This document shows, piece by piece, positions 11,876 to 26,969 of a DNA stretch of 38,383 nt. Made by a program: the position numbers and the translations under genes. The notes beneath the pieces are model-generated. The model did not search any database and had not been told where the DNA came from. It worked only from the letters and a program-made list of their open reading frames with translations. This stretch comes from Campylobacterota bacterium (GTDB lineage Bacteria; Campylobacterota; Campylobacteria; Campylobacterales; Sulfurimonadaceae): positions 1-38,383 of the forward strand of contig JAADDU010000022.1 of assembly GCA_013153755.1 (NCBI GenBank), given 5' to 3'. Positions within the stretch are counted from its first letter, which is position 1. Each line of letters begins with the position of its first letter.

Positions 11876-13982
11876 TCTTTGAGTTTACCCAATCATCTCT
11901 AGTTTTATTTGTAGTTTCTATCTGCGTTATAGCTAGCTTTTTAGAGGAAATACTCTCATACCTATCCATAATCAAAATGATTTCTGTATCTTTTGTGAAA
12001 ATATCTATGTATGAGTAAATAAGGTTTTTAGCATTATTAAATTTATGGTTTGAAAGTAGATGTAGTATATGTACTTGAAATGCAAGTCTAAGCAAAGAGC
12101 CTATTCTTTCTCGTCTGTGTGCTAGCTTTATAAGTTCTCCAAGTGTTGATTTTATCTCTCTTGCACTACCTTTTATGGCATGATTTTCACATCTGTTTAT
12201 TAGTTTAAACCAGTGACGATGTAGTAATGTACCTAGTTCAGAGTGTTGTAAATGAGGGTACTCATCTATAATTTCATAACATCTAAAAAAATCATTCTCA
12301 GTATAAGCATCTTGCAAATTTTGCATATTTAAACACATCATATAGAGTTCTTCTATCTCTTGTTTGAAGTTTGGCATATTTTCTATCTTCTTGAGTGCTT
12401 CTTTTGCTTTGTTTAGTTGATTTTGCTTTATATATATTTTTATCTCTTGGATAGATTCTTGTATATTTTCTTCAAGTGTTTTAAATATAGGCATTTGTAA
12501 AAATAGTTTATTTTGTTTTGAGATTTCATTAATAACTTTAAAGTTTTTACTGTTTATGGCTTTTACAAATTCTATAAATAAATCATTGTGCATTAGCATT
12601 AGATGTATAAGATTTCGTTTTGACTGTACCGGTATGAATTCATGAAAAATATTCTTTGCATGGTTTATTTGATTGTTACTTATATGTTTTTGAGCGATAC
12701 TAAATGTTTCTTTCCACTTTCTCTCCATATTTTTATGTTCTTTTGTCAGCTTTAAAGGTGGGAATTTTTCACTCATAGCATAACAAATAGAGTATTTTTT
12801 ATCTAAGTAGAGGATATTAAATCTATGATAGTTTTCAAATGCTTTAAATAGTAATCTTATAGATTCTTTTTTTGAATCTACATTTTGATAGTTATTCATG
12901 ATCTCTTTTGCAAGTTTTTCATTTTTATTTATGAGAGCTTCTGTTGCTCTTTTGTAGTTTTGTATATATCTCTTCTCTAACTCTTGATGAGCATCTGTTC
13001 CTATTAGCATTGGCTCATCTTCTATGAGTTTAAATGCCTTATCTATAGAGTTATGTAATATAAGTGATTTTAGTCGTTTGGTATTAGGAAGTTCTACATG
13101 AAGAAGCTTATTGTTGCTTAGGGCTACTATGAGAGTGTCTTTATCTGTAAGTTCTAAGAAGTTAATTTTATCTTCAAATTTTATGTATTTAGTATGTATA
13201 AGTGTTTTTTGTTTTGAATCTACAATATAAATTCTTTTAGAATTAGCATGTATGATGAGGTAGTTTGTATTTGGAATTTGCTTTATTTGTGAAATCTTTT
13301 TTTCATTAAGATGAATAGTTTTTAAAACTTTGTTTTTACAAATGGATATAAATTGTAAATCACCATTATTATCACCACATAAGATAGTCTCTGTATCTAA
13401 AAAGAGTAAAGCAGTTTTTAAAAATGTGTTATGAAAAAGTATGTGTTTATTTGCTTGAGAGTATATATCAACTATAAAGATAATTCCACCATGACCACCT
13501 ACAGCTATGAAATTTTTATAATATGTGATAGAACTTATAAAATGGTTTCTAAATTTATTGGTTTTATTTTTATATCCAAATGAAAAAAGTCTTGATATGT
13601 GTAGGTTTGAATTATATTTATACAGCATAACCCGTGCATCTTTTGTCCCTGCTATGATATAGTTTGAAGAATTGTCAAACGATAAGATGATTAGGTGTTT
13701 TGTTTGTGTATCTATTTTTTTTATGATTTCGTTTGTTATTAAATCAGCTATGTATAAATACCTTTTTGTGCTAAAAGCGATTCGTTTTCCATTCTTTGAA
13801 AAGGTTACAGCTAGAGTATGACTACTTAAATCTTTATGCGTAAAAGTATAATTTGGTTTACATTTTGATAGACTAAGACTATCTACTCCATCATATTTAG
13901 TAGAAAATATGATTTTATCAATTGTTTTTGATAGATTTGTAATTTGAGATGAAGCTGTGTGGATTTCGTTTATTATTGGCAT
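11862..13982 (-). CDS. Large beta-propeller (WD40-like) plus helical repeat protein
   Basis: A 706-aa protein without signal peptide or membrane helix. Residues about 20-320 contain WD40-like blade repeats: LAVTFSKNGKRIAFSTKRYLYIADLITNEII, LIILSFDNSSNYIIAGTKDARVMLYKYN, then blades with GGHGGIIFIVDI and CGDNNGDLQFISI. The remainder (about 330-690) is entirely helical and rich in Lys, Glu, Leu and Asn, resembling TPR/HEAT-type solenoid helices (for example ISNNQINHAKNIFHEFIPVQ). This suggests a scaffold for protein assembly. No enzymatic motif is visible and I cannot name it. The ATG at 13982 has no clear ribosome site. Its 3' end overlaps fliI by 14 bases in convergent orientation. Confidence 0.75.
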   Translation of the reverse strand: MPIINEIHTASSQITNLSKTIDKIIFSTKYDGVDSLSLSKCKPNYTFTHKDLSSHTLAVTFSKNGKRIAFSTKRYLYIADLITNEIIKKIDTQTKHLIILSFDNSSNYIIAGTKDARVMLYKYNSNLHISRLFSFGYKNKTNKFRNHFISSITYYKNFIAVGGHGGIIFIVDIYSQANKHILFHNTFLKTALLFLDTETILCGDNNGDLQFISICKNKVLKTIHLNEKKISQIKQIPNTNYLIIHANSKRIYIVDSKQKTLIHTKYIKFEDKINFLELTDKDTLIVALSNNKLLHVELPNTKRLKSLILHNSIDKAFKLIEDEPMLIGTDAHQELEKRYIQNYKRATEALINKNEKLAKEIMNNYQNVDSKKESIRLLFKAFENYHRFNILYLDKKYSICYAMSEKFPPLKLTKEHKNMERKWKETFSIAQKHISNNQINHAKNIFHEFIPVQSKRNLIHLMLMHNDLFIEFVKAINSKNFKVINEISKQNKLFLQMPIFKTLEENIQESIQEIKIYIKQNQLNKAKEALKKIENMPNFKQEIEELYMMCLNMQNLQDAYTENDFFRCYEIIDEYPHLQHSELGTLLHRHWFKLINRCENHAIKGSAREIKSTLGELIKLAHRRERIGSLLRLAFQVHILHLLSNHKFNNAKNLIYSYIDIFTKDTEIILIMDRYESISSKKLAITQIETTNKTRDDWVNSKIIGS

Positions 13983-14040
13983 ATATAATTATATATAAAA
14001 AAAGGGGTTTAGTTGCTTAAAAGGTTTATAAAAAGAAAGT

Positions 14041-14063
14041 TTAAGCCACAAAAAGTGGCTTAA
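14041..14063 (-). terminator. Rho-independent terminator of the psr unit
   Basis: Perfect 9-bp stem TTAAGCCAC / GTGGCTTAA with a 5-base A loop (read on plus). It starts eight bases beyond the stop of the 107-aa cytochrome-like gene. On the minus strand the stem is followed by ACTTTCTTTTTTAT, a U-rich tract, so it should end minus-strand transcription from psrABC and that gene. Confidence 0.8.
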
Positions 14064-14070
14064 GAGTTAA

Positions 14071-14394
14071 TTAACAAGATGGAACATTTCCACTATCGTT
14101 AGCAAACTCATAGAAAAAGTCATAGTAGTGTTTAAGATATTTTTCTTTTAATGCTTTATCTTTAGCAGTTGGACAAATAGTTTTAATCTCTTTAGCTAGT
14201 CCAGCACCATTACCGATTTCTTCCCATTCATCTTGAGAATGTTTAGCAGACATTTTACCACCATTCATACCACAAGCACCTTTAAGCTTTTTAAGATAAA
14301 GTTTTTGACCTTTACCAGCATCTGCATTTAAAGTAACAGAACCCATTCCTAAGATAAGTGTTGTCGCAAGAGCGATTTTAACGATTTTATTCAT
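14071..14394 (-). CDS. Small secreted cytochrome-c-like protein lacking a haem motif
   Basis: A 107-aa protein with a clear signal peptide (about residues 1-25, ending TLNADA) and a strong AAGGAG ribosome site. The mature part begins GKGQKLYLKKLKGACGMNGGKMSAKHSQDEWEEI. This resembles the start of small class I cytochromes (GQKLYLKK followed by CxxCH), but here CGMNG replaces the CxxCH, so covalent haem attachment by the standard motif is impossible. Three cysteines remain: Cys41, Cys74 and the C-terminal residue Cys107. It is the last gene of the psrABC unit, 128 bases below psrC and just before a strong terminator. A periplasmic thiol or sulfane-sulfur role would fit the context but is unproven. 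Confidence 0.8.
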   Translation of the reverse strand: MNKIVKIALATTLILGMGSVTLNADAGKGQKLYLKKLKGACGMNGGKMSAKHSQDEWEEIGNGAGLAKEIKTICPTAKDKALKEKYLKHYYDFFYEFANDSGNVPSC

Positions 14395-14522
14395 TTTTTC
14401 TCCTTGTTGAATTGCATAAGTGTACCGAAGAAAATATAAAAATAATATTTATTATAAAATTAATCTATATAATTTATATTTAGCGTTACACATTTTTTAG
14501 TATTTTAAATGAAGAAAGGGGC

Positions 14523-15713
14523 TTAGTGAGCCTCTTCCTCATCAAGATTAAATACTTTAGTACCTACATAGTATAACATTAAACATATACCAAGACCACC
14601 AAGAGATATCATGATCTCAGTACTACTTGGAAAATAGTGAATCCACTCTGGTGGAAGTTGATACTCTGCTTTTTTAAGCATTTGTAATGGTTTAACTTGA
14701 GTATCATGTACAAGATTGTATCTCATAAAGAAAATTCCAACCATACCACTTAATGATGCCCAGAACATAAGAACAGGACTTCTACCAAAATCTTTGAGTA
14801 TTACAAGCAAAGGTATAATCATAGCTAACACAACTTCTACATGAAATGCAGTCGAATGTATAATATGTTCAGCAACTTCAGCACGATTTGGCATACCACC
14901 ATACATATCTGTTAAAAGTTTCCATGTTACGAAGAAAATTAAGATAGAGATTAGTAAACCTTGTATCTTAGCAAGACCTTGAAGCATAGTTTTTACTTTT
15001 GCTGGGAAATTTAATTTATATCTAAATCCCATAATGATAAATGCGATAAATACACCTGTAATAAACGCAGTTAAGATAAAGTATGTTGGATAGAACACAC
15101 CTTGTGAGATTGTTCTAGCATTTAAAAAACCAAATACTGAACCAAGATTTGAGTGAGCTGCAAGACCTACTAAAAGACCTGTAAGACCAAAAATCTTAGC
15201 TTTTTTCATGTCATGGTTAAGTAAAAAGTAAAACTCAACAATCATAAATGTTAAGTAAAGACCATAAAGTGTACCCATCCACCAGATAGCAGAAGTTAAA
15301 CCTGGACTTAAAACATTATAGATAAGCATAGTTACTGGGTGACCAATCTCAAATGCGATAACTGCAAAACCAGCTAAAATAGTTACGATTGAACCAAATA
15401 TAGCTCTTTTTGAGATAAGCATATAGTCTTTAAAACCAAATACATCACCAAGTGAACCGATGATACACATACCAGTTGAGCTTACAACAAAAAAGATATA
15501 AACTGCGATTAGTAATCCCCACGGGTGTTCTCTTGTTACATTATAAGCATGGTGACCATGCATTAAATATGTAGCAACTCCTATAACAAACATCGCCAAA
15601 AATGCTACTACTACTACAGCAAGAAGCATATTGATTGGTGTTTTTTCAAAATTGAATAATGATTTGATAGAAAAATCTTCCCTTATAGGAATATTTAATG
15701 GACCTATTTTCAT
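14523..15713 (-). CDS. psrC: Polysulfide reductase membrane subunit (NrfD/PsrC family)
   Basis: Integral membrane quinone-interacting subunit that anchors PsrAB and exchanges electrons with the menaquinone pool. The 396-aa protein is almost entirely hydrophobic helices (about nine or ten), for example LLAVVVVAFLAMFVIGVATYL at about 29-49. The NrfD-family features are clear; the cytosolic N-terminus is short and the C-terminus acidic (NLDEEEAH). A strong AAGGAG ribosome site overlaps the end of psrB, 11 bases upstream. PsrC-type proteins carry no haem, and none is seen here. The same architecture occurs in thiosulfate and tetrathionate reductases, so substrate naming relies on the partner subunits. 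Confidence 0.88.
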   Translation of the reverse strand: MKIGPLNIPIREDFSIKSLFNFEKTPINMLLAVVVVAFLAMFVIGVATYLMHGHHAYNVTREHPWGLLIAVYIFFVVSSTGMCIIGSLGDVFGFKDYMLISKRAIFGSIVTILAGFAVIAFEIGHPVTMLIYNVLSPGLTSAIWWMGTLYGLYLTFMIVEFYFLLNHDMKKAKIFGLTGLLVGLAAHSNLGSVFGFLNARTISQGVFYPTYFILTAFITGVFIAFIIMGFRYKLNFPAKVKTMLQGLAKIQGLLISILIFFVTWKLLTDMYGGMPNRAEVAEHIIHSTAFHVEVVLAMIIPLLVILKDFGRSPVLMFWASLSGMVGIFFMRYNLVHDTQVKPLQMLKKAEYQLPPEWIHYFPSSTEIMISLGGLGICLMLYYVGTKVFNLDEEEAH

Positions 15714-15724
15714 TTCTATGCTCC

Positions 15725-16288
15725 TTATGTTAGATAAAATAATTTTGGATTAGTGCCAAGATGAGATTTTAAACTAAAATGTTCTCTTACTCTTAGTATT
15801 TCACTAATTTCACTATTTGGATCATCTAAATCACCAAAAATTCTTACTTTCGTAGGACAAGTATTTTGACAAGCTGTTGTAGTCTCACCACGAGCAAGTC
15901 TAGTATCTGCACAGAAAGTACATTTATCAACAGTCATAGTTCTATCATCTACATATCTTGCATCGTAAGGACATGCATTCATACAGTAACTACATAAGAT
16001 ACATTTTTCAGGGTCAACTCTTACTATTCCATCTTCAGTATAGTATGTTGCATGAGTAGGACATACATCTTCACATGGAGCATCATCACAATGTTGACAT
16101 TGTGAAGGATAAAAAGCATTTGAAGTTATGTCAAGTAGAGGATATTGCCCCTCTATTTCACCAACACCTACCCAAATTCTATGTTTGTCAGCACCTAATA
16201 GTACTCCGTTTTCTTCTTTACATGCTGTTTCACATGCCTTGCAATTGATACAATTTTTGTAATCAAGTGCCATTCCATATCTAGCCAT
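15725..16288 (-). CDS. psrB: Polysulfide reductase iron-sulfur subunit, four [4Fe-4S]
   Basis: Electron-transfer subunit of 187 aa that links the molybdopterin subunit to the membrane subunit. Sixteen cysteines fall in four ferredoxin-type groups: C13/16/19/23, C64/67/72/76, C96/99/102/106 and C123/126/140/144, enough for four [4Fe-4S] clusters as in the PsrB/DmsB/PhsB family. There is no signal peptide, as expected for a partner exported together with a Tat-targeted catalytic subunit. The ATG lies three bases after the psrA stop, with AAGG inside the psrA end, indicating tight coupling. Length matches the family. Confidence 0.92.
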   Translation of the reverse strand: MARYGMALDYKNCINCKACETACKEENGVLLGADKHRIWVGVGEIEGQYPLLDITSNAFYPSQCQHCDDAPCEDVCPTHATYYTEDGIVRVDPEKCILCSYCMNACPYDARYVDDRTMTVDKCTFCADTRLARGETTTACQNTCPTKVRIFGDLDDPNSEISEILRVREHFSLKSHLGTNPKLFYLT

Positions 16289-16291
16289 AAA

Positions 16292-18724
16292 TTACACCTT
16301 TCTTATTTCAACATTTGTTTCATGCATAGCAGCTGCACCATAAACAGGTTCTGTATGATCTTCAATAACAGCATTATCATTACCACCATTTTTATAAGCC
16401 CAAGTTAAAGACTCACTCTCTTCACCAAAACCATGGATAAAGAAAACTTGATCAGGAGCTATTTTTTCTGTTGGATAAGCTTTAAGTTGAGTTTTACCTA
16501 TACTTGAACTTACTTCAATCATATCTGCAAATTTGATACCTTTTTCTTCTGCGATTCTTTTATTTATCCATATAAAGTTTTCCGGCATAAGACTTCTAAG
16601 CATTGCATTATTTGATGTACCACTTTGAGTAAACTGAGCATGACGACCAGTCAATAATTTGAACTTACCTTTTGGAACATTAAAGTTATATTCATCTCTC
16701 CATATAGGCATAGGATCTATCCCTTTAGCTGCAAATGATTTTATAACACATTCAACTTTTCCAGATGCAGTTTTTAGTTTTCCACCTCTAGTAGTATATG
16801 ATTTTTTGTTTTCAGGATAGTACTGAAATTTATTTTCACCAAGCTGTTTATAGTAAGTTTCTTGTTTAGGATAATAAATACCATGGTGATGAAGTTGCTC
16901 AGCAGCACCAGGGTACATAGCAACAGCATGATGATTTAGTTCCTCTTGTGTATGTTTAAATGGTAGTGTTAAGTCAAACTCTGCATAAGTTTCCTCTTCT
17001 CCATCATCTTCTATAGCATCTTGAATCTCTTCATCATATTTTTTACTGATTTCAAATAATGGTTTAGAGATTTTATTTGTTAAACCATTCATAATTTCCA
17101 TTACTGGTTTAGTTTCAAACATAGGGTCTATTACTTTATTTCTAACTGCGATAGAAGGTTCTATTCCACCAAATGTTTTAACAGGGTCAGTTCTCTCTAA
17201 GTATGTACACTCTGGAAGTACAACATCAGCATACATTACAGTATCACTTGGCATTGTATCTATTGTTACAACTAGCTCCATTTTTCTTAGCATCTCAGCT
17301 GTTTTTGCAGTGTTTGGCATATTCATCATAGGATTATGCTTATAGCAAAACATCCCTCTAACTTTATATGGCATTTTATCTTCTAAGAAACGATTTCTCC
17401 ATCCTATCCAAGAACCACCACCAGATACAACGGCACAGTCATCATAACCTTGATGACCACTTTTGTCAGTTCTTTTTACGATTGCTCTTGCTTGAGCTTT
17501 TTCATATAGAGGTTGAAGACCCTCATGTGGCTTAAGTTTTAATTTACTACCAAAGATTAAACCACCTTTAGTGTCAATTGCTCCATGAAGTGCTTGGAAA
17601 ATTGCCATTGCACGGCGAAGTTGGAAGTCATTTTTAGCAAAAGTACTTCTTCTTCCTGGATAATAAACAGACTTCGGTGCATGAGATGCAAATTCTCTTG
17701 CTATTGTGTATATGTCTTTTGCTTTTACTCCAGTGATAGCTTCAGCCCACTCCGGAGTATATTTGTTTGTGATAACACTATCTTTATATTCATCAAAACC
17801 ATTAAAATGCTTAGATATATATTCTTTGTTTTGTAAATCTTCTGTTAGTGTTACATAAGTTAATGCTAAAACAAATGCTAAGTCTGTACCAGGTTTGATA
17901 GCTAACCATTTATCGGCTTTTGCAGCAGTGTTTGTAAATCTAGGATCAATACATATTAACTTTGCGCCACGACCTTTTGTTCTTTTAAAACAGTCCATAG
18001 TATCAGGTGTCACGATAGCTTCTGCTCTGTTTGCACCAGCCATAATGATATACTCAGCATTTTCTAAATCTGCTTGAGGATATGAACCAAGTGTTACTCC
18101 ATATCCAGAAGCAACAGTTTGTAAACATATTGAAGCATGGTTTAACCAGTTTGAAGAACCAAATGCTTGATAAAATTGTTTAAATGTATGTTCTGCCATA
18201 CCTTCACCAGCACAAAATAGCATTGATGAACGGTTGTCTTCTTCTTCATCTAAAATTTTACTAAGACCTGGGAATTTGTCTGTACCATTTAAAATAGCAT
18301 CATAAGCTTCATCCCAACTAACTCTTTTAAATTTACCTTCACCTTTTTCTCCGATTCTAATCATCGGGTACTTTAGTCTGTCTGGATCATAAAGAGCTTG
18401 AAGTCCAGCATTACCTCTAGCACATAACATGTTTTTTGATTTTGGAAACATTGGATTTGGATTTAATTTTGTAACAACCCCATCCTCAATTCTTGCAAGT
18501 GCAGCACATTTGTTAACACACATTTCACAAAGTGTTGCTACATCATGAGCCTCACCAGTACCAGTTTTTGTTGTGATTGAGCTAGGTGCATGACCTTTTG
18601 TAGCACCATGACTTGAACCATGTTCATTAGATAAAAGATTTGTAGTACTAAGTGCTGTTGCTCCAACAACACTCATAGCTACAGTTCCTTGAAGAAATTT
18701 TCGTCTTGAAACTTCTACTTCCAT
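16292..18724 (-). CDS. psrA: Polysulfide/thiosulfate reductase-type molybdopterin catalytic subunit
   Basis: Periplasmic molybdenum bis-MGD oxidoreductase of 810 aa. The start is set at 18724, not at the longest frame start (18808), because GGAGGGG (18733-18739 on minus) stands 8 bases before this ATG and the protein then begins with a twin-arginine leader, SRRKFLQG at residues 6-13. A [4Fe-4S] motif follows (Cys66, Cys69, Cys73, Cys101), and Cys199 (NHASICLQT) is the likely Mo ligand. The C-terminal dinucleotide-binding domain contains LLTGRHAQFTQSGT. An acidic stretch near 564-582 and two His groups (597-598, 611-613) mark a variable segment. Direction (polysulfide reduction or sulfur oxidation) cannot be read from sequence. 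Confidence 0.88.
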   Translation of the reverse strand: MEVEVSRRKFLQGTVAMSVVGATALSTTNLLSNEHGSSHGATKGHAPSSITTKTGTGEAHDVATLCEMCVNKCAALARIEDGVVTKLNPNPMFPKSKNMLCARGNAGLQALYDPDRLKYPMIRIGEKGEGKFKRVSWDEAYDAILNGTDKFPGLSKILDEEEDNRSSMLFCAGEGMAEHTFKQFYQAFGSSNWLNHASICLQTVASGYGVTLGSYPQADLENAEYIIMAGANRAEAIVTPDTMDCFKRTKGRGAKLICIDPRFTNTAAKADKWLAIKPGTDLAFVLALTYVTLTEDLQNKEYISKHFNGFDEYKDSVITNKYTPEWAEAITGVKAKDIYTIAREFASHAPKSVYYPGRRSTFAKNDFQLRRAMAIFQALHGAIDTKGGLIFGSKLKLKPHEGLQPLYEKAQARAIVKRTDKSGHQGYDDCAVVSGGGSWIGWRNRFLEDKMPYKVRGMFCYKHNPMMNMPNTAKTAEMLRKMELVVTIDTMPSDTVMYADVVLPECTYLERTDPVKTFGGIEPSIAVRNKVIDPMFETKPVMEIMNGLTNKISKPLFEISKKYDEEIQDAIEDDGEEETYAEFDLTLPFKHTQEELNHHAVAMYPGAAEQLHHHGIYYPKQETYYKQLGENKFQYYPENKKSYTTRGGKLKTASGKVECVIKSFAAKGIDPMPIWRDEYNFNVPKGKFKLLTGRHAQFTQSGTSNNAMLRSLMPENFIWINKRIAEEKGIKFADMIEVSSSIGKTQLKAYPTEKIAPDQVFFIHGFGEESESLTWAYKNGGNDNAVIEDHTEPVYGAAAMHETNVEIRKV

Positions 18725-18791
18725 AAGCATTACCCCTCCATATATTTTTCTAAAATAATTCCCCATAAACTTAAGTGTTACTGATGAAAGA

Positions 18792-18861
18792 ATTATAGAT
18801 TTAAACATTGTAGTTAAATTTATCTTATAATAAACTTTATTTAAACTTATTTATAAGATAA
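18792..18861 (-). promoter_or_regulatory. Candidate psrA promoter with paired TTATnnnATAA sites
   Basis: On the minus strand TATAAT occupies 18792-18797, giving a predicted start near 18785 and a leader of about 60 bases to the psrA ATG. Upstream lie an 11-base inverted repeat, TTATCTTATAA at 18820-18830 and TTATAAGATAA at 18851-18861. Each arm is itself dyadic (TTAT-3 bases-ATAA), and the arm centres are 31 bp apart, about three helical turns. The near arm would cover about -35 to -45. This looks like tandem operator sites; the regulator is unknown. Confidence 0.5.
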
Positions 18862-18913
18862 GAAAAATTTATATAAATAGGTAAACTTATAATAATAATT
18901 ATATATACTAATA

Positions 18914-20065
18914 TTATCTAGGTATTTTTATATCAATATCCTCTATCATTCCTTTTTCAAAGTTTTTATGGCAAGCAAAACAGTTTGATTTTCTTTTTAC
19001 TTTTTTTGATTTAAAAATATGTGGTGCTATACCACTATGTGTTTTTTTCCAATACTTAATTTTAGTGATAGATTTTCTACCTCTAGCTCCATTTAGGGAC
19101 TTCATTACTTTTACAGAGATCTCTCTTGGGTTTTTATCAGCACTATTTTGTTCTAGATAATTAAATATAACAGTTTGATCATTAAGGGAGATTCTATTTT
19201 CCCCTTTTTTCATATTTGGGGAAATCTCTTCACCAAAATGATTTTTTAGTCCACCTTGTATTCGAGACCATGAACTTTTTGGTAACATAAATGGTGGATA
19301 AGGTTTATGACAAGCTCCACATTCAGTATAGTAAGTAAAAGATTCATGTTTGTAGTCATGTTGTGTATATTTACTTACTACAAATGGATTATTTCTCCCA
19401 TCTGTTGAAACAAAAAAAACAAAAATAGATAAAAGTAAAAAGAGGTAAGAAAGTCCACTTTTATATTTTCCAGGATAAGAGTCTTCCCCTTTTGCTTTTT
19501 TATATCCACTAACCATAGCAAATGCCATATTTGTTTTATGATAAAATTGTTCAACAAAAACACCACTCACATGGATAATTGCCCATACTAAAAGTGCATA
19601 GGATGTTAGTTTATGTATATCAAAAAGTATATCCATATACATATAATATTCATCATTTAAGAAACCAAGATAACCCTTGCCCTCTTGAATACCATAAAGC
19701 AAAAGACCCGTTAATGAGATAACAGAACCTAAAGATAAAACTATAAGGGTAAACCAACTTGATGCTGGATTGTGTCCAGCTGGAATATCTCTATACCTAT
19801 TTTTTACTTTTTCAGTAAAGTATTCTTTAAGTTGTTTTAGTGAGAGTTTAAATGTATTAAAAGTTGCATATCTTGGACCAATAAATCCCCAAATAATCCT
19901 GTAAACAAGCATAAGTCCAAAGATAATACCAACAGCAACATGAAGATTTAAGAGATTTTCTTTAAAAGAGAAGATAAAGGCTAGAGTGAAAGATGAAGCT
20001 ATCAGCCAGTGGATAACTCTAGTGTAAAAAGGCCATACAAAAACTAAATTTTTTCTTTTGTTCAA
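18914..20065 (-). CDS. Cytochrome b561-type membrane domain fused to dihaem cytochrome c
   Basis: A 383-aa redox protein. Residues about 10-220 form a cytochrome b561-like membrane domain with candidate haem b histidines (His19 in RVIHW, His42 in LNLHVAVG, His151 in FDIHKL, His165 in AIIHVSG) and a further helix at about 205-220. Residues about 235-383 form a dihaem cytochrome c domain of the DHC type: Cys249-Cys252-His253 in ECGACHKPYPPFMLP and Cys362-Cys365-His366 in NCFACHKNFEKG. It probably carries electrons between quinone and periplasmic c-haem carriers. The start is a TTG at 20065 with AGGA upstream (ATTAGGAATAAATATTG). It precedes psrA in the same orientation, separated by 189 bases with a candidate promoter. 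Confidence 0.85.
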   Translation of the reverse strand: MNKRKNLVFVWPFYTRVIHWLIASSFTLAFIFSFKENLLNLHVAVGIIFGLMLVYRIIWGFIGPRYATFNTFKLSLKQLKEYFTEKVKNRYRDIPAGHNPASSWFTLIVLSLGSVISLTGLLLYGIQEGKGYLGFLNDEYYMYMDILFDIHKLTSYALLVWAIIHVSGVFVEQFYHKTNMAFAMVSGYKKAKGEDSYPGKYKSGLSYLFLLLSIFVFFVSTDGRNNPFVVSKYTQHDYKHESFTYYTECGACHKPYPPFMLPKSSWSRIQGGLKNHFGEEISPNMKKGENRISLNDQTVIFNYLEQNSADKNPREISVKVMKSLNGARGRKSITKIKYWKKTHSGIAPHIFKSKKVKRKSNCFACHKNFEKGMIEDIDIKIPR

Positions 20066-20124
20066 TATTTATTCCTAATATTTAATATGGTATTTATTGT
20101 AGCATATTAACTACTAGAAATAAT

Positions 20125-20154
20125 AAAAGGCAGTAAAATTATATACTACCTTTT
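20125..20154 (-). terminator. Terminator after the SQR-cytochrome c pair
   Basis: Arms AAAAGGCAGTA (20125-20135) and TACTACCTTTT (20144-20154) pair over 11 bp with one mismatch around an 8-base AT loop, 26 bases beyond the stop of the cytochrome c gene. On the minus strand the 3' arm ends in TTTT and continues ATTATTT, so it should separate the SQR-cytochrome unit from the b561-dihaem gene. Confidence 0.65.
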
Positions 20155-20180
20155 GTATTTATGTAACAAATAAGAAAACT

Positions 20181-20561
20181 TTATCTTTTCTTAGCTAAGT
20201 AAGATAAAAATTCTGCCATAGAATCAATATCGTAGTCATAACCCTTGTCTATAAGTTTTTGCATATTGTGTTCCATAATTTCATGGTCAGTTCCACTTGA
20301 CATGCCATCAGTTCCACCATTCTTAACATCATATAAATCTTCAGCCATCTCTCCTGGTGTTCTGTCGTTTAATGCAGGTGTTTTCTTAGCAGGGTTACCC
20401 TCTCCATTCGCACCATGACATTTAATACAACTTTTTTCATAAACTTGTACTGTTGTGTATTTATAAGTTTTTTTAGTTTCAACTGGTGTATCTCCACCAC
20501 AACCTGTAAGTGCTATAAAAGCCACAGATGCAAGTGCTATTGTAGTTATTTGTTTTATCAT
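20181..20561 (-). CDS. Lipoprotein monohaem c-type cytochrome
   Basis: A 126-aa class I-like cytochrome. The leader ends in a lipobox, ALTGC with Cys21, so the mature protein is probably a lipid-anchored periplasmic cytochrome. One CxxCH haem site occurs in CIKCHGANGEG (about residues 45-49). Met residues downstream (for example in MAEDL and GMSSG) could supply the axial ligand; the C-terminal helix is SMAEFLSYLAKKR. It begins 19 bases below the sulfide:quinone oxidoreductase gene with a strong AAGGAG site, so the two are likely co-expressed. A flavoprotein with a small cytochrome recalls the FccAB arrangement, although the flavoprotein partner here is SQR-like. Confidence 0.9.
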   Translation of the reverse strand: MIKQITTIALASVAFIALTGCGGDTPVETKKTYKYTTVQVYEKSCIKCHGANGEGNPAKKTPALNDRTPGEMAEDLYDVKNGGTDGMSSGTDHEIMEHNMQKLIDKGYDYDIDSMAEFLSYLAKKR

Positions 20562-20580
20562 TTTATTCTCCTTATTCTAA

Positions 20581-22053
20581 TTAAGCTCTACCGCTAAGCA
20601 TACCATACTGTGTCATAGGTTTAAGTAAATATACTTTTAACAACCACCAGATCCATCTCTCTTGTGTAGGATCTAAAGGAACCATTGGTGTTGGTTTTTT
20701 AGTCCAGTTAAACTCTGCTAACATTACAGTACCTATGCTTGTAATAAGTGGACAAACAGTATACCCATGATATTTTGCATCTAAAGATTTACCTTCCATA
20801 GAAGCTATCATGTTGTCAACAACAACTTTATATTGTTTTCTAGCAGATCCACCAGTTTTACCCATTGGAACAGCAGCAACATCACCTAAACACCAAACAT
20901 TTTTAAATTTTACATGCTGTAGAGTTTCTTTTTTAACTGGAACCCATCCTTTAGATGAACCAACTTTAGAGTTAGCAACAACATCTGGAGCTTTCATAGG
21001 TGGAGTTACATGTATAAAATCGTAAGGAACTTGAACCTCTTCACTTTTTAACTCAACACCATACTCTTCCAAATCTTCATCCCAAGCACCTTTTTCTTTC
21101 CAGTGATGGTTAAAAGTTGCCATTTTAGCTTCTGTATCTATTTTGATTAGGTTATGGCTATAGTTCCATTTAAAACCTCTAGTTTTAAATTGATTTACGA
21201 TCGCTTCGTGATACTCAGGAACACCAAACATTTTCCCACCATTTGGATAGAAAGTAAGTTCAACTGCTTCTCTAACACCAGCTTTTTCTAATTGTGCATG
21301 TGTAAGATACATGATTTTTTTAGGAGCACCACCACATTTAATAGGTGTATTTGGGTGAGTAAATAGAGCTTGAAGCTTAGGTTCACCTTTTTTCCATTTT
21401 TTAGCTTTTGCTATAAGTGATTCTATCCCTTTCCAAGTGTCTTCTGAACCATCTTGAAAATAGATAGAATAAACACCATTTTTACCAATAGTTTTCTTAG
21501 CCTCTGCATTGTCAGGATTACAAGATGTTATCTCTCCTGTTAAACCTTCGATAGCTTTGAAGTTTAACATAAGACCTGTTGCAATGATAAGCTGGTCATA
21601 TGACACTTCTTGTTTACCATCTACTGTTACTGTATTGTTTTTAGGATCAAAACTAGTTACACTACCTTTTATAAGAGTAGTTCCACTTGGAACAAAGTCA
21701 TCTCTGTTGTACATAACTTCACTCTTATCCCAAATACCACCACCTACTAGTGTTTGACCTGGTTGGTAAGATGTAGATAAAGGATTTGGTTCGATTACCG
21801 TTATATCTGGATTTGATAGAGTGTTTGTTAGTCTTGCAGCTGTACTCATACCAGAGAGTCCACCACCAACGATAACAATTTTTCCTTTTGCACTAGATGC
21901 ACTAACAGAAGTTGTTCCAACTGTAGCACCTGCAATAATAGATGCAGCCAAAGGTGACATTGTTAAATACTTCATAGCATCACGACGAGACATAATTTCT
22001 GGATGTTTATCTACTTCAGCCAGAATCTCTTTTAAGATTTCATTTTTTTTCAT
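20581..22053 (-). CDS. sqr: Type II sulfide:quinone oxidoreductase with Tat-like leader
   Basis: FAD disulfide reductase of 490 aa oxidising sulfide to sulfane sulfur or polysulfide. An N-terminal leader contains SRRDAMKYL (residues 22-30) followed by a hydrophobic stretch ending SVSASS, a Tat-like signal. The FAD fold starts IVIVGGGLSGMS (59-70). Cysteines 178, 240 (TPIKCGGAPKKIMYL) and 434 (YTVCPLITSIGTVMLAEFNW) match SQR positions; the last two contexts closely resemble the redox cysteines of human SQOR, which defines type II. The C-terminal amphipathic stretch WIWWLLKVYLLKP fits monotopic membrane attachment. The leader suggests it works on the periplasmic face. The co-transcribed cytochrome c may be an alternative acceptor. 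Confidence 0.88.
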   Translation of the reverse strand: MKKNEILKEILAEVDKHPEIMSRRDAMKYLTMSPLAASIIAGATVGTTSVSASSAKGKIVIVGGGLSGMSTAARLTNTLSNPDITVIEPNPLSTSYQPGQTLVGGGIWDKSEVMYNRDDFVPSGTTLIKGSVTSFDPKNNTVTVDGKQEVSYDQLIIATGLMLNFKAIEGLTGEITSCNPDNAEAKKTIGKNGVYSIYFQDGSEDTWKGIESLIAKAKKWKKGEPKLQALFTHPNTPIKCGGAPKKIMYLTHAQLEKAGVREAVELTFYPNGGKMFGVPEYHEAIVNQFKTRGFKWNYSHNLIKIDTEAKMATFNHHWKEKGAWDEDLEEYGVELKSEEVQVPYDFIHVTPPMKAPDVVANSKVGSSKGWVPVKKETLQHVKFKNVWCLGDVAAVPMGKTGGSARKQYKVVVDNMIASMEGKSLDAKYHGYTVCPLITSIGTVMLAEFNWTKKPTPMVPLDPTQERWIWWLLKVYLLKPMTQYGMLSGRA

Positions 22054-22340
22054 ACTACTTCCCTATATATTTTAATAAAGTAGTACAATTTTACAGGTTT
22101 AGTACTTAATCGTAGTTTTTATTATAATTATTTTCTCAGCATTGTAGTGATTCTACACAAATTCCTATTTTAAGGGCTTTTAAAAGAATTTATACTTATC
22201 TTAATTATAATTATTACTTAATTATAAATAGAATTATAAGGCCTACTTTTTACTTTATTAAGTTTTTTTTATAACAGGTCTAAAATTTTCTTTTTATTGG
22301 TTATAATTATATAGATGTAAATCTCAAAGTAGGAATCGTA
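22054..22340. promoter_or_regulatory. Divergent promoter region between sqr and the FCSD-like gene
   Basis: This 287-base gap is extremely AT-rich. On plus, TATAAT at 22302-22307 is a -10 candidate for the rightward flavoprotein gene (about 35 bases before its ATG). On minus, TATAAT at 22121-22126 is a -10 candidate for sqr. Between them TTAATTATAA occurs at 22201-22210 and 22218-22227, a 17-base step, with a partial copy AATTATAA at 22232-22239. These may be regulator sites or only AT-rich background. I see no gene in the gap. Confidence 0.45.
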
Positions 22341-23660
22341 ATGGTAATTGATAGAAGAGATGTATTAAAACTTCCAATAATAGCACTTGGTTCTACAGTG
22401 CTAAATGCAAATATACAAAAAATAACTAAAGAAAAAGTAAAAATTGTAGTTATAGGTGGTGGTTTTGGCGGACTTACATTTGCAAAGAAATTTAAACTTT
22501 TACAAAAAGAGATAACAGTTACAGTTATAGATAAAAATGAACTTTTTATGACTGGTCCAATGTTTAACCTTATGTTAGGCGAAGTTAATGGTGTTGATTT
22601 TAAAACCATAACATACCAAAGGGAAAAAACAGCTCAAAAATATGACTATAAACTACTTCATGCAGAAGTTTTTAACATAGATAGAATGGTAAAAAAAGTT
22701 TATACAACTAAAGGAGAAGTTGATTATACATATCTTGTTTTGTCCCCAGGTATTGCTTATGCTTATGAAAAACAGTTTCCATCATGGGATAAAACAAAGG
22801 TACTCAGAGCAAAGATGGAAGCTCCATCTGCTCTTATACCAGGGGAAGAGTTTTTCTTATTGATGGATAAACTAAAAAGTTTTAAGGGTGGAAATATAGT
22901 CCTAAGTGTACCACTAGGTGAATATAGATGCCCACCTGCACCATATGAAAGAGCTTGTATGTTTGCTCAATACATAAGAAATCACAAACTAGATGCAAAA
23001 GTTATAGTGATAGATAACTACTCACGCCCTGTATCTAAAACAGAAGCTTTTGAAGAGGCTTTTAGAGATGTATATCCTGATATCATAGATTATAGGGGTG
23101 ATTGTACACTAGAAGATGTTGACTTTGATGCCAAAAAAGTAAGTTACTCTTTTTGGGGAGAGGGTAGTGGTGATGATGGAGATATGAAAGAGGTATCTTT
23201 TGAACTACTAAACCTTATGGTAAACAACAAAGCAAGTGAAGTTATCAAAATGGCAAAAATCAAAACACTTGGCTGGGGGTCTGCAAAACTAAAAGCACCA
23301 ACTTATCAGTCTGTAACAGATGAAGATATATATGTGATAGGGGATTGTGTAGGGTATGCTTTTCCTGAGAGTGGACAGATGGCAAACTCTATGGCAGCTA
23401 TCTGTGCAAAACATATCTCACAACGAATAAATGCTAAAGAAGTAACACAAGAGATGCCTGGTAATATTTGTATCTCTATGATAAATACAAAACCAAATGA
23501 AGCTATAAGTGATTCTCATAATATAAGTTATGATGGCAAAAAGTTTAAAGTTGTAAGGTATATGCCGTATGATGAAGTAACTAAAAAGTATAGAAGTGCT
23601 TATATTTCTAAAACACTATTTGCATGGTATGAGGGGATTATGAGTGATATTTTAGATTAG
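22341..23660 (+). CDS. Flavocytochrome c sulfide dehydrogenase-like flavoprotein (FccB/SoxF type)
   Basis: A 439-aa FAD protein of the SQR/FCSD superfamily, divergent from sqr. A short leader (DRRDVLKLPIIALGSTVLNA) includes twin arginines, suggesting export by Tat. The FAD fold is KIVVIGGGFGGLTFAKKF (34-51), and the redox cysteines are Cys197 in GEYRCPPAPYERA and Cys377 in GNICISMI. That pattern (YRCPPxPYERA) is characteristic of FccB/SoxF, not of SQR. The FAD-binding stretch YVIGDCVGYAFPESG is present. An acidic insertion GEGSGDDGDMKE lies at about 273-284. FccB normally pairs with a cytochrome; the nearest c-type cytochrome is the lipoprotein across the divergent promoter. AGGA precedes the ATG. 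Confidence 0.85.
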   Translation: MVIDRRDVLKLPIIALGSTVLNANIQKITKEKVKIVVIGGGFGGLTFAKKFKLLQKEITVTVIDKNELFMTGPMFNLMLGEVNGVDFKTITYQREKTAQKYDYKLLHAEVFNIDRMVKKVYTTKGEVDYTYLVLSPGIAYAYEKQFPSWDKTKVLRAKMEAPSALIPGEEFFLLMDKLKSFKGGNIVLSVPLGEYRCPPAPYERACMFAQYIRNHKLDAKVIVIDNYSRPVSKTEAFEEAFRDVYPDIIDYRGDCTLEDVDFDAKKVSYSFWGEGSGDDGDMKEVSFELLNLMVNNKASEVIKMAKIKTLGWGSAKLKAPTYQSVTDEDIYVIGDCVGYAFPESGQMANSMAAICAKHISQRINAKEVTQEMPGNICISMINTKPNEAISDSHNISYDGKKFKVVRYMPYDEVTKKYRSAYISKTLFAWYEGIMSDILD

Positions 23661-23686
23661 AAATACGACTAAAGTCGTACTTCTAA
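23657..23686. terminator. Hairpin between convergent flavoprotein and porin genes
   Basis: TACGACT (23664-23670) and AGTCGTA (23673-23679) pair around AA; after one A/C mismatch six more pairs extend the stem outward into the stop codon of the flavoprotein gene. The gap to the convergent porin stop is small, so this is probably a bidirectional terminator, although no long T-run follows on either side. Confidence 0.6.
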
Positions 23687-23693
23687 ATCTGGG

Positions 23694-25283
23694 TTAGTAT
23701 CTATATCTAAAATATACTCTTAAATCGGATGCAGATGTAACTGCATTCATCGCTTTAGCCATCATGGAGTCTATTTCATATGGTGTACCACCATCTCCAA
23801 AGAATCCATCTGAACCAGTATAATCATACTTCATGTATGTATATCTAATTTGCATAGAAAAAACTTTATCTATGATAGGTTGAGTCCAATAAGCTTCATA
23901 AGCTTTACCACGAACAGCCATTTTTGAACCAGCCATTGTATCTTCACCATATGTAAATGGTCTCCAATATTTTGAACCATGGTTGTATTCTATACCAAAT
24001 TTACCACCTGTTAAGTTTGGTGTTTGTATACCAATCCAGTATGAATTACCTGTTTGAGATTTTGTACTTCCAAGCATATCTTTATTGTTATCAGGTCGTG
24101 TTTTTGACCATGCATAAGAAGCAAATATGATAGTTTCGTCTAAGAAGTCATTTATCTCATTACCTATACCTTCTATTTTAGCTGATATTGCAGCTCCATC
24201 CATATCACCTAAAGTTTTCATATCTGCCATAGGCATCATTGGGTTATAATTAGGATTTGGTGCACCCGTTGGTGTAACTGGCTGATTTGCATTCATCTTC
24301 ATACCTGGTACACTTAATCCACGGTAATATTTAGTTACAATAGAGTACTGACCATCATCATAGGGTTGAAAAATAAATCCTACCATATCTGTATTATCTA
24401 ATGAACCATTAACTGTAGTATAACTAGGCTGATTAGCTGCTTGAGCCATAGGACTAGCATAGTAAGTTCCTTTAGAAGCCCATGAAGCTGCATTTGTTAG
24501 ACCACGACCAACACATGCTTTAAAATACATACCAGAAACATATTTATCAAACTTAGCACTGATGCTTGCACCATCAAACTCCATATTTATTATATGCCCT
24601 AGTGCTGATTTTGCTTTATCATCATCTCTTAAGTTTATTAGGTAACCGTTTGTTGCAGGACGACGACCAATACTAACTGTCATAGGTAAAGAGCCTAAAG
24701 TTGGTTTCCATAACCAATAAATTTCCCTAAGTCTTACTTTTTCATCTGTAAGTGTTTCATTTACAACCCAGTCAAATGTATCAAAGCCCATGCCAGTAGC
24801 TCGTTGACCGTAGCTAGCACCAAATGCTTTATTTACACCAAGAGTAGCATTAAAAACCATATCATCTGTTGGAGCATAACCCATTCCTAGCCATAATCTC
24901 ATAGAGTATAGAGCATCATTATTATACTCAGTTGGTTGTGTACCATACATCCCACCTGTAGTCTTATAAGTTAATTTATCATAAGAAGTTCTAAAGTCAA
25001 CATTAAATTTTAAGTTGTCATTAGCAGTTAGAGAGTTTATCTTAGATAATTTTTTAGTTTGAGAAACCTGTTTCTTCTCTAGTTTTTTTATCTTTTTAGC
25101 TAAATCTTTTATATTGGCTTCACCAGTGTTATTTGTTTTAGCTGGTAACTTCTGTTCTAGTTCAGCTACTTTATCCATCAAAGCTTTAACTTCTTCTTGT
25201 AATATTTCTACGTCAGTTTGTGCGTAAAGAGTGCTACTAAGAAAAGCGACTATTGAAAGTGTAATGAATTTATTCATTTTCAT
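23694..25283 (-). CDS. Outer-membrane beta-barrel porin, DUF3373-like (copy 1)
   Basis: A 529-aa protein with a signal peptide (about 1-21, ending LYA), then a heptad-rich coiled coil at about 25-85 (VEILQEEVKALMDKVAELEQ onward). A barrel domain follows with alternating strands, ending in an aromatic C-terminus, LRVYFRYRY. The coiled coil, the motif VSIGRRPATNGYL, the LGHIINMEFDGASISAKFDKY block and the FGIEYNHGSKYW block are shared with the next gene and fit the DUF3373 family as I remember it. An N-terminal coiled coil on a barrel suggests a trimeric porin held to the envelope. Substrate is unknown; its place beside sulfur genes hints at a sulfur or metal compound. Confidence 0.8.
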   Translation of the reverse strand: MKMNKFITLSIVAFLSSTLYAQTDVEILQEEVKALMDKVAELEQKLPAKTNNTGEANIKDLAKKIKKLEKKQVSQTKKLSKINSLTANDNLKFNVDFRTSYDKLTYKTTGGMYGTQPTEYNNDALYSMRLWLGMGYAPTDDMVFNATLGVNKAFGASYGQRATGMGFDTFDWVVNETLTDEKVRLREIYWLWKPTLGSLPMTVSIGRRPATNGYLINLRDDDKAKSALGHIINMEFDGASISAKFDKYVSGMYFKACVGRGLTNAASWASKGTYYASPMAQAANQPSYTTVNGSLDNTDMVGFIFQPYDDGQYSIVTKYYRGLSVPGMKMNANQPVTPTGAPNPNYNPMMPMADMKTLGDMDGAAISAKIEGIGNEINDFLDETIIFASYAWSKTRPDNNKDMLGSTKSQTGNSYWIGIQTPNLTGGKFGIEYNHGSKYWRPFTYGEDTMAGSKMAVRGKAYEAYWTQPIIDKVFSMQIRYTYMKYDYTGSDGFFGDGGTPYEIDSMMAKAMNAVTSASDLRVYFRYRY

Positions 25284-25449
25284 TTGTTCCCCTTTTTTAA
25301 TTAAGTTTAAGTAACCTTATCATAATTAAGCAGGAAATGAATGTGTTTTATATAAAAAAATCTAATATATAGAGAAAATGTAACAAAAAGTGTGATATAT
25401 AATCTTTTGTTATAATTTAATATTAGTCTAACATTGATTAGTAATAAGA

Positions 25450-25477
25450 ATAACTTATGCATTAATGCATAAGTTAT
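25450..25477. terminator. 28-base perfect palindrome after porin copy 2
   Basis: The half ATAACTTATGCATT is followed immediately by its exact complement, giving 28 bases of perfect dyad symmetry, eight bases beyond the stop of the downstream-facing porin gene at 25486. As RNA it would fold into a 12-bp stem with a TTAA loop. The minus-strand sequence after it is TCTTATTACT, only moderately U-rich, so terminator function is likely but an operator or binding-site role is possible because it also lies 167 bases upstream of porin copy 1. Confidence 0.6.
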
Positions 25478-25485
25478 ATAAGAAT

Positions 25486-26871
25486 TTAATATCTGTAGCT
25501 AACTGATACTCTGATATCTTGAGAAGTCATATCTACACTTTCTGGTTTAATCCAACCAGCACATTTTACATTTGGTGTGTATTCATGTTGTACATAAGTG
25601 TATCTGATTTGCGAAGGTAAGTTTTTAGCACCAAAAAGGTTAAAATTCCAATATGCTTCATAAGCATTACCACGAACAGCTATTTTAGAGCCTATAGCAG
25701 TATCCTCTGCCCATGTCATAGGTGTCCAGTATTGAGAACCATGGTTATACTCTATACCAAATTTACCATCATCAGTCATTAGATCTGGTATTAGAACTCC
25801 AAACCAATAAGATGTACCTGTTTCACTTCCTGTAGAACCTAGTAGAGAATATCCCTCTTTTGGATTATATTTTGTTGCTGCAAAAGATGCAAAAACTGTA
25901 GTGTTTTCTAAAAATTCTATATCTTCACTAAGTCCATCTATTTTTAAAGATAAAGCACCTAAATCAGCAGTACCAGCTGCTTTTTTTGGTTTTCCATTAT
26001 TTAAATTTTTACCTTTAGTATTGAAAATATGAGCCCATTGGTACATTAACTGAACTTGACCATTGTTATATGCATCACCTAAAAATACAAAGAAGTCAAC
26101 ATCATCATCATCATCTTCAGTCTCGGCATAAGGACTAAAAGGATTAGTTGTACCTATTCCATAGATATTATCTATATCCCCAGTATGTGCTCTACCATAT
26201 ACAAATTTAGAATAACTACCTTCGATAAAGCGATCCCAGTTAAATTTAATCATAAGTGCATCTACTTCCATGTTTGTAATATGCGCAAGAGGTGAACCAG
26301 AATCTGGTTCGTTTTCTCTATAGTTAGCTAAAGTTCCATTTGTAGATGGTCTTCTACCAATACTTACACTATATGGTTGATTACCTATATTATTAGCATA
26401 TACAAAGTAAGCTTCTTTTACTCTCATCACTGTATCACTTGCTTTAGATGAACCAGACCAGTCTTTAAGGCCAAGACCTGTATCTAATGACTCACCAGTA
26501 TAGTTAAGGTGACCACCCCACATAGAATAAACAGCTAATTTACCGTAAAAAGTAAGTTCATCTGTTGGAGCAGCTTTCATATTTAAAAATAATTTACTTG
26601 TTAAAAGAGAATCATTGCTTGCTCTTTCTCCAGTTCTGTTATTTTTATAATCTAATACATCTACTGCATTTCTGAAGTCAATAGTGAACTTTATATTATC
26701 AAATGCATCGTGTGCTTTTACTGCATTTAATGTTTTTTTTGTTCTTTTTTGATTTTTTTCAAGCTTTTTAACTTTTTTAGTTAAAGCATCAACTTGTGCT
26801 TGTAAATCAGCTTGAGCATATAAGCTAGTACTTAAAACAGCAGCGGCTGAAAGTAGTATAATTTTTCTCAT
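25486..26871 (-). CDS. Outer-membrane beta-barrel porin, DUF3373-like (copy 2)
   Basis: A 461-aa paralogue of the neighbouring porin. It has a signal peptide (about 1-20), a coiled coil (LQAQVDALTKKVKKLEKNQKRTKK) and shared barrel blocks: KFTIDFRNAVDVLDYK, VSIGRRPSTNGTLANYRENE, LAHITNMEVDALMIKFNWDRF, and FGIEYNHGSQYWTPMTWAEDT with IRVSVSYRY at the end. A run of six consecutive acidic residues (ETEDDDDDVDFF, about 224-235) marks a loop, perhaps a cation-binding or selectivity loop, that copy 1 lacks. A gene duplication followed by loop divergence is the simplest explanation. The ATG is preceded by AAGGGAAAG. A palindrome separates it from copy 1. Confidence 0.82.
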   Translation of the reverse strand: MRKIILLSAAAVLSTSLYAQADLQAQVDALTKKVKKLEKNQKRTKKTLNAVKAHDAFDNIKFTIDFRNAVDVLDYKNNRTGERASNDSLLTSKLFLNMKAAPTDELTFYGKLAVYSMWGGHLNYTGESLDTGLGLKDWSGSSKASDTVMRVKEAYFVYANNIGNQPYSVSIGRRPSTNGTLANYRENEPDSGSPLAHITNMEVDALMIKFNWDRFIEGSYSKFVYGRAHTGDIDNIYGIGTTNPFSPYAETEDDDDDVDFFVFLGDAYNNGQVQLMYQWAHIFNTKGKNLNNGKPKKAAGTADLGALSLKIDGLSEDIEFLENTTVFASFAATKYNPKEGYSLLGSTGSETGTSYWFGVLIPDLMTDDGKFGIEYNHGSQYWTPMTWAEDTAIGSKIAVRGNAYEAYWNFNLFGAKNLPSQIRYTYVQHEYTPNVKCAGWIKPESVDMTSQDIRVSVSYRY

Positions 26872-26969
26872 TCTTTCCCTTTAAAATAAATTGACGGTAT
26901 TTTATCAAAAAAACGAATAAAGTGGAAGTTTTATGCTCTTGCGAATGGTGTTATGAAATTAAAATGTCA

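Follow-up and report, generated by a model that had tools for sequence, protein, structure and literature searches.

A Campylobacterota sulfide/polysulfide locus with a recurrent sqr–psr cassette, a Gly72 FccB-like flavoprotein and a cysteine-ended small protein

Introduction

How does sulfane sulfur move between sulfide:quinone oxidoreductase (SQR), polysulfide reductase (Psr) and Sox in the periplasm of Campylobacterota? We addressed this question at a locus on contig JAADDU010000022.1 of a Sulfurimonadaceae bacterium (assembly GCA_013153755.1), of which positions 1 to 38,383, the whole stretch analysed, are called the window here. Between positions 14071 and 26871 the window carries sqr and psrABC genes, a gene for a flavoprotein resembling the FccB protein of flavocytochrome c, and a gene for a 107-amino-acid (107-aa) protein that ends in cysteine. 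Judging from sequence comparison, we give an even chance to the reading that the locus encodes a modular periplasmic sulfide/polysulfide interface, whose two directions would be used at different times according to conditions. The reading is supported by catalytic residues kept in SQR (Cys240, Cys434), in the FccB-like protein (Cys197, Cys377, Glu203) and in PsrA (Cys228). Because the locus offers both a conserved partner protein ending in Cys and what looks like an exchange of the FccB-like enzyme for SQR, the sulfur-transfer question becomes testable with a few purified proteins and deletions.

Results

Layout of the locus

PsrABC, a fusion of cytochrome b561 with a dihaem cytochrome c (DHC), SQR, a lipoprotein cytochrome, the FccB-like gene and two porins were all found within 14071–26871, as an earlier note on this DNA had listed them. 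The 107-aa gene was absent from that note and lies at the edge of the same stretch. The cassette is flanked by WD40, fliI and folE genes on one side and by recJ and pyrG on the other, and in relatives sqr is often at the same place; 'island', as the locus had been called, is a loose term. The features are:

14071..14394, minus strand: gene for the 107-aa protein, no Pfam or NCBIfam family
14523..15713, minus strand: psrC, NrfD-type membrane subunit (PF03916, E 8.8e-19)
15725..16288, minus strand: psrB, 16 Cys, four 4Fe-4S clusters expected
16292..18808, minus strand: psrA, molybdopterin catalytic subunit (Tat motif SRRKFLQ)
18914..20065, minus strand: cytochrome b561 fused to DHC (PF01292 and PF09626; two CxxCH)
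20181..20561, minus strand: mono-haem cytochrome c lipoprotein (one CxxCH, LTGC lipobox)
20581..22053, minus strand: Tat-type type II SQR (Tat motif; alignment to SQOR)
22054..22340, no strand: divergent intergenic stretch of 287 bp between sqr and the FccB-like gene (from the sequence)
22341..23660, plus strand: FccB-like flavoprotein, Gly72 clade (closest in the PDB to flavocytochrome c sulfide dehydrogenases)
23694..25283, minus strand: DUF3373 outer-membrane porin, convergent with the FccB-like gene (PF11853, E 5.4e-111)
25486..26871, minus strand: second DUF3373 porin (PF11853, E 3.8e-78)

The two sulfide dehydrogenase types were said to face one another across a promoter. The divergent arrangement over 287 bp holds, but the promoter was not borne out: promoter-like matches in 13900–27100 numbered 54, not above those in shuffled sequences (mean 64.6). 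Rfam and tRNA scans gave no matches.

SQR, its cytochrome neighbours and Psr

The best solved match of the window SQR is human SQOR, and Cys240 and Cys434 align with both of its catalytic cysteines, which we take to be Cys201 and Cys379; the two residues are invariant across 34 aligned SQR proteins. A structure search with the predicted model (pLDDT 85.1) ranked human SQOR first, and the model has two short C-terminal helices (467-475 and 477-485) in a conserved stretch that is predicted to bind the membrane. By sequence and model, the protein is a type II SQR, sharing both catalytic cysteines, the fold and the modelled helices with human SQOR (6oi5/6mp5) and with the Tat-type SQR of Campylobacterota. 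A TAT motif is stated for all type II SQRs in an epsilonproteobacterial table (PMC4584964). Unlike known type II SQR, the window sqr is followed by the lipoprotein cytochrome gene and the b561/DHC gene. The mono-haem lipoprotein cytochrome is a likely partner of SQR, because in 35 of 70 related loci sqr has a cytochrome c gene on its downstream side (see below). Directly 3' of a distant type II SQR there is a 78-87 aa open reading frame in all five loci read (L144-L148).

The DHC part of the fusion matches the solved DHC structures 2fw5, 2fwt and 3u99. In Rhodobacteraceae, SHP and DHC genes are grouped with a gene for a b-type cytochrome. The b561 and DHC domains are common to the window and to that system (PMC2909971), but in the window they are fused into one protein and there is no confirmed SHP.

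PsrA has its best solved match in Thermus thermophilus (2vpw), where Cys228 aligns with position 173, presumably the Mo ligand. The features of PsrABC are present (Mo-site Cys, Cys-rich PsrB, NrfD-type PsrC, Tat motif), and the subunits and the aligned Cys are those of the Wolinella and Thermus (2vpw) complexes. In contrast to these, the window psrABC sits in a cassette with SQR. Its predicted substrate is polysulfide; the best NCBIfam model of PsrA is thiosulfate reductase PhsA, at 489.5 bits and below the cut-off of 694. PsrC had no sequence match in the PDB up to E 1. Two loci of Sulfurimonas metagenome-assembled genomes (L003, L053) contain, after the first psrABC and a gene for an Lcl-domain protein, another psrA-psrB pair that has diverged (46% identity to the window PsrA).

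Recurrence of the sqr–cytc–b561–psrABC cassette

We asked whether this set of genes is peculiar to the window. One SQR scan gave 70 related sqr loci, nearly all titled Campylobacterota, in which sqr is followed by a cytochrome c gene in 35, b561/DHC is found in 31 and psrA in 15; these counts are lower bounds, because many contigs are short. All 15 psrA-bearing loci also have cytochrome c and b561/DHC, and recJ lies directly upstream of sqr in 35/70, a count likewise limited by short contigs. A Hydrogenimonas-like genome (G152), whose loci were read by tblastn and a six-frame CxxCH scan, has the order pyrG–recJ–sqr–cytc–psrABC–b561. In a survey of 228 genomes (the family of genome G003), psrA was within 6 kb of sqr in nine genomes, and for psrA of at least 69% identity it was linked to sqr in 8 of 16. 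The sqr–cytc–b561/DHC–psrABC core is therefore a recurrent cassette, often beside recJ/pyrG and ordinary for the phylum. Uniqueness of the whole set was rejected as the core recurs; of the conserved synteny by which the earlier note proposed to judge the set, the core was found (15/70 loci and G152) but an FccB-like gene beside sqr was not (0/70). No description of this gene set was found in passages from the mostly open literature on FccB, Rieske proteins and FAD, the sqr and psr genes, DUF3373, and the reduction or disproportionation of sulfur.

Could adjacency simply reflect the history of the locus, sulfur genes with no joint function having gathered in a variable slot that is flanked by recJ/pyrG and WD40/fliI? 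The slot does differ among relatives: some have the full cassette there, some sqr together with the 107-aa gene and some sqr alone, and its parts are lost independently, as in G382, where b561-psrABC is present without sqr. However, sqr-cytc-b561 is retained in Sulfurospirillum loci with no recJ nearby, and porin, sqr and 107-aa gene recur together in several other gene orders. We consider this explanation somewhat unlikely.

An FccB-like protein lacking the FAD-anchoring cysteine

The FccB-like protein of the window has the FccB fold, among solved structures it is most similar to flavocytochrome c sulfide dehydrogenases, and in our tree it belongs to a monophyletic clade. In flavocytochrome c, Cys42 is the site of covalent FAD attachment (PMC3504083). 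This cysteine is not kept in the clade: the residue aligned to position 42 of 3vrd is Gly72 in 24/24 proteins (clade and window), and it is Cys in 96/96 other homologues showing the residue, among the matches listed. Cys197 is present in 24/24 and Cys377 in 23/24, P0023 being cut short, while Glu203 is invariant across the 55 proteins of alignment A1. Within the searches made, the Gly72 clade is new, and it offers a natural test of the role of covalent FAD in flavocytochrome c. That the clade has no C-terminal FCSD domain was rejected, since the region aligns and one member, P0019, has a match to PF09242 below the cut-off (E 0.0088, 16.8 bits versus 26). No clade member was found among 24 genomes of a smaller set; the match in G178 (50% identity) is Cys-type and falls outside the clade. 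In a distant FccB relative from genome G004 (locus L073), the FAD-anchoring Cys was lost independently (SGPLSN).

We compared the contexts of FccB genes, 44 distinct ones in all, taking in at least about 1.5 kb of flanking sequence wherever the contig was long enough. Of the 39 Cys-type genes, 20 have a Tat-Rieske neighbour and none has a DUF3373 porin within about 1.5 kb. Among the five Gly-type genes a convergent DUF3373 porin was present in G027, G152 and G549; in G172 the contig ends inside the gene, and the fifth context is that of the distant G004 gene. In G027, G152 and G549, a six-frame scan of the 1.6 kb around the FccB-like gene gave no frame with CxxCH, and in the window the nearest CxxCH gene is 1.8 kb off, across sqr, with no fccA beside the FccB-like gene. 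The window protein thus differs from the FccB of 1fcd, 3vrd and 5n1t, which has Cys42; its gene is also set apart by the DUF3373 porin gene opposite it and by the lack of a neighbouring gene for FccA, a Rieske protein or a cytochrome. In the tree, its sister group includes Campylobacterota FccB encoded with Tat-Rieske and cytochrome c'-like genes, mostly of 35-47% identity to the window protein; unlike the latter, this Rieske-linked FccB keeps the FAD Cys. A Sulfurihydrogenibium-like bacterium is likewise described as having an fcc-type gene accompanied by one for a Rieske protein (PMC3504083). In L121 and L124 the FccB-like gene is immediately preceded by a gene for an Mrp/ApbC-type P-loop protein (recognised in L124 from the start of its sequence).

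The model of the FccB-like protein has one long C-terminal helix in place of the two short C-terminal helices of the SQR model, which makes a periplasmic cytochrome the likelier electron acceptor. The loss of the FAD-anchoring Cys, the absence of an adjacent cytochrome gene and P0042, a clade-like 251-aa fragment that starts after residue 72 and has no Cys377, would also fit another disulfide-type flavoenzyme that is not a sulfide dehydrogenase. Set beside the solved matches and the conserved Cys197, Cys377 and Glu203, we regard this identity as very unlikely.

An apparent replacement of SQR

Can the FccB-like enzyme do without SQR? In the sibling genome G549 the order is folE–fliI–WD40–107-aa gene–psrC–psrB–psrA, then the FccB-like gene and a porin; sqr, cytc and b561 are all missing from the locus contig. 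In the 1.5-Mb assembly the SQR query matched only the FccB-like gene and no type II SQR was found, the completeness of the assembly being uncertain. Because this locus has the FccB-like gene and psrABC without sqr, the simplest reading of these sequences is that the FccB-like enzyme can apparently stand in for SQR there; in the window, unlike in G549, both genes are present. A non-canonical fcc in place of sqr has been suggested for another Sulfurimonas (PMC10066037). The exchange of an FccB-like enzyme for SQR beside Psr appears to be new, within the searches made.

The Cys-ended 107-aa protein

The 107-aa protein has a signal-like N-terminus, no CxxCH and three cysteines (Cys41, Cys74 and Cys107), the last being its final residue. 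We found 642 homologues; among the 120 listed and scored, the C-terminal Cys is present in 120/120, exactly three Cys in 119/120 and a CxxCH haem motif in 0/120. Several homologues are named 'cytochrome C' in their source records, while the best matches to PDB (E 0.18) and Pfam (E 0.028, searched up to E 10) are not meaningful. A cousin of the family in G027 (L155, 4213-4536, minus strand) combines CKKCH with the DSGNVPAC tail of the family, so that a haem-bearing ancestor is likely, with haem loss in the sqr-linked branch. From its sequence, the 107-aa protein is likely a haem-less derivative of cytochrome c, and as a Cys-ended partner it is new, within the searches made.

Next to which genes is it found? 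In the family of G003, 113 rows of the 107-aa family were used, and 60/113 have sqr or psrA no more than 10 kb away. For SQRs of at least 64% identity the gene is within 1 kb of sqr in 27/69, and in 26 of these it is downstream in the same orientation; among psrA genes, 27/50 have it no more than 6 kb away. For SQRs below 55% identity it lies upstream, within 10 kb, in 12/20; five of these 12 loci were read and have the order 107-aa gene–DUF3373 porin–sqr, and the order in L044 is sqr–107-aa gene–porin, gene orders within one clade not being independent. In three Arcobacter-type loci the gene is 5–7 kb from sqr on the opposite strand.

The 107-aa protein is a candidate sulfane-sulfur carrier, a role that would explain why its genes travel with sqr, psr and porin. 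On sequence grounds, these proteins might form a new class of periplasmic carriers, derived from a mono-haem cytochrome c by loss of the haem, gain of cysteines and retention of the terminal one, which would receive sulfur from SQR, or from an FccB that replaces SQR and binds FAD non-covalently, and deliver it to PsrA; in this full form the proposal is tentative and, in our estimate, unlikely.

Both window porins carry the PF11853 domain, and DUF3373 has been placed under the outer-membrane pore family 1.B.62 (PMC4827864). In a quick tree without support values the first porin groups with those of L001 and L137, and the idea that the FccB-like gene arrived together with a foreign porin was rejected on this ground.

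Direction of use

In the proposed interface, sulfide would enter through the DUF3373 porins and be oxidised by one of two enzymes: SQR, whose electrons would pass to menaquinone, and the FccB-like enzyme, whose electrons would pass to a periplasmic cytochrome. The FccB-like enzyme may thereby add a further outlet that works at a different redox potential. Sulfane sulfur would leave as polysulfide or on the Cys-ended 107-aa protein, and b561/DHC with the lipoprotein cytochrome would connect periplasmic cytochromes with the quinone pool. Under a supply of hydrogen or formate and a shortage of acceptors, PsrABC would reduce polysulfide back, so that the oxidative and reductive directions would alternate in time.

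The earlier note had suggested a loop from sulfide to polysulfide, or a bifurcated route; the bifurcated route found no direct support. The loop has the co-location of the genes in its favour (15/70 sqr loci), and an 'internal sulfur cycle' leading from SQR to Psr has already been proposed (PMC4674564). If it ran simultaneously, with SQR or FccB forming sulfane sulfur and Psr re-reducing it through the same quinone pool, the net result on one menaquinone pool should be zero. Alternating use is likelier for this reason, as SQR and Psr together would conserve nothing. In addition, no type II SQR was found in G549, and normalised psrABC transcription in Black Sea Sulfurimonas did not track that of sqr, the type of sqr not being given (PMC9122950). 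That the two reactions run at once we hold to be quite improbable.

Another possibility is that Psr is oxidative or serves sulfur disproportionation, SQR, FccB and Psr then working in one direction. To our knowledge, the characterised Psr enzymes are reductases, and the sequence itself carries no sign of direction. Sulfur-disproportionating strains of Campylobacterota, their pathway unrevealed, do carry psrABC (PMC9948710), yet we judge this reading very improbable.

Several observations weigh against an interface with alternating directions. The same Black Sea transcripts are one of them. A terminator-like hairpin with a T-rich tail lies between cytc and b561, which makes a single transcript for the cassette doubtful; it is present in some relatives only, and a conserved terminator was not found at this junction. 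Half of the psrA genes of at least 69% identity (8/16) are not near sqr, to which contig ends may contribute, and no FccB relative is near sqr in the 70 loci. The Gly72 clade is rare, in 3/398 genomes of the order and 1/228 of the family, the latter from a search with a strict threshold that could miss fragments. In the Hydrogenimonas-like genomes neither sqr nor the psr cassette nor the 107-aa gene adjoins the FccB-like gene, and P0042 has Tyr in place of Cys377. For SQRs of 55–63% identity, the 107-aa gene is within 10 kb in 1/20, and in the loci with Sulfurovum or Sulfurospirillum in their titles the surroundings of sqr showed neither this gene nor a porin.

Finally, the WD40-repeat protein (window positions 11862-13982) adjoins fliI and, although poorly conserved at 33-48% identity in relatives, is often found at this position.

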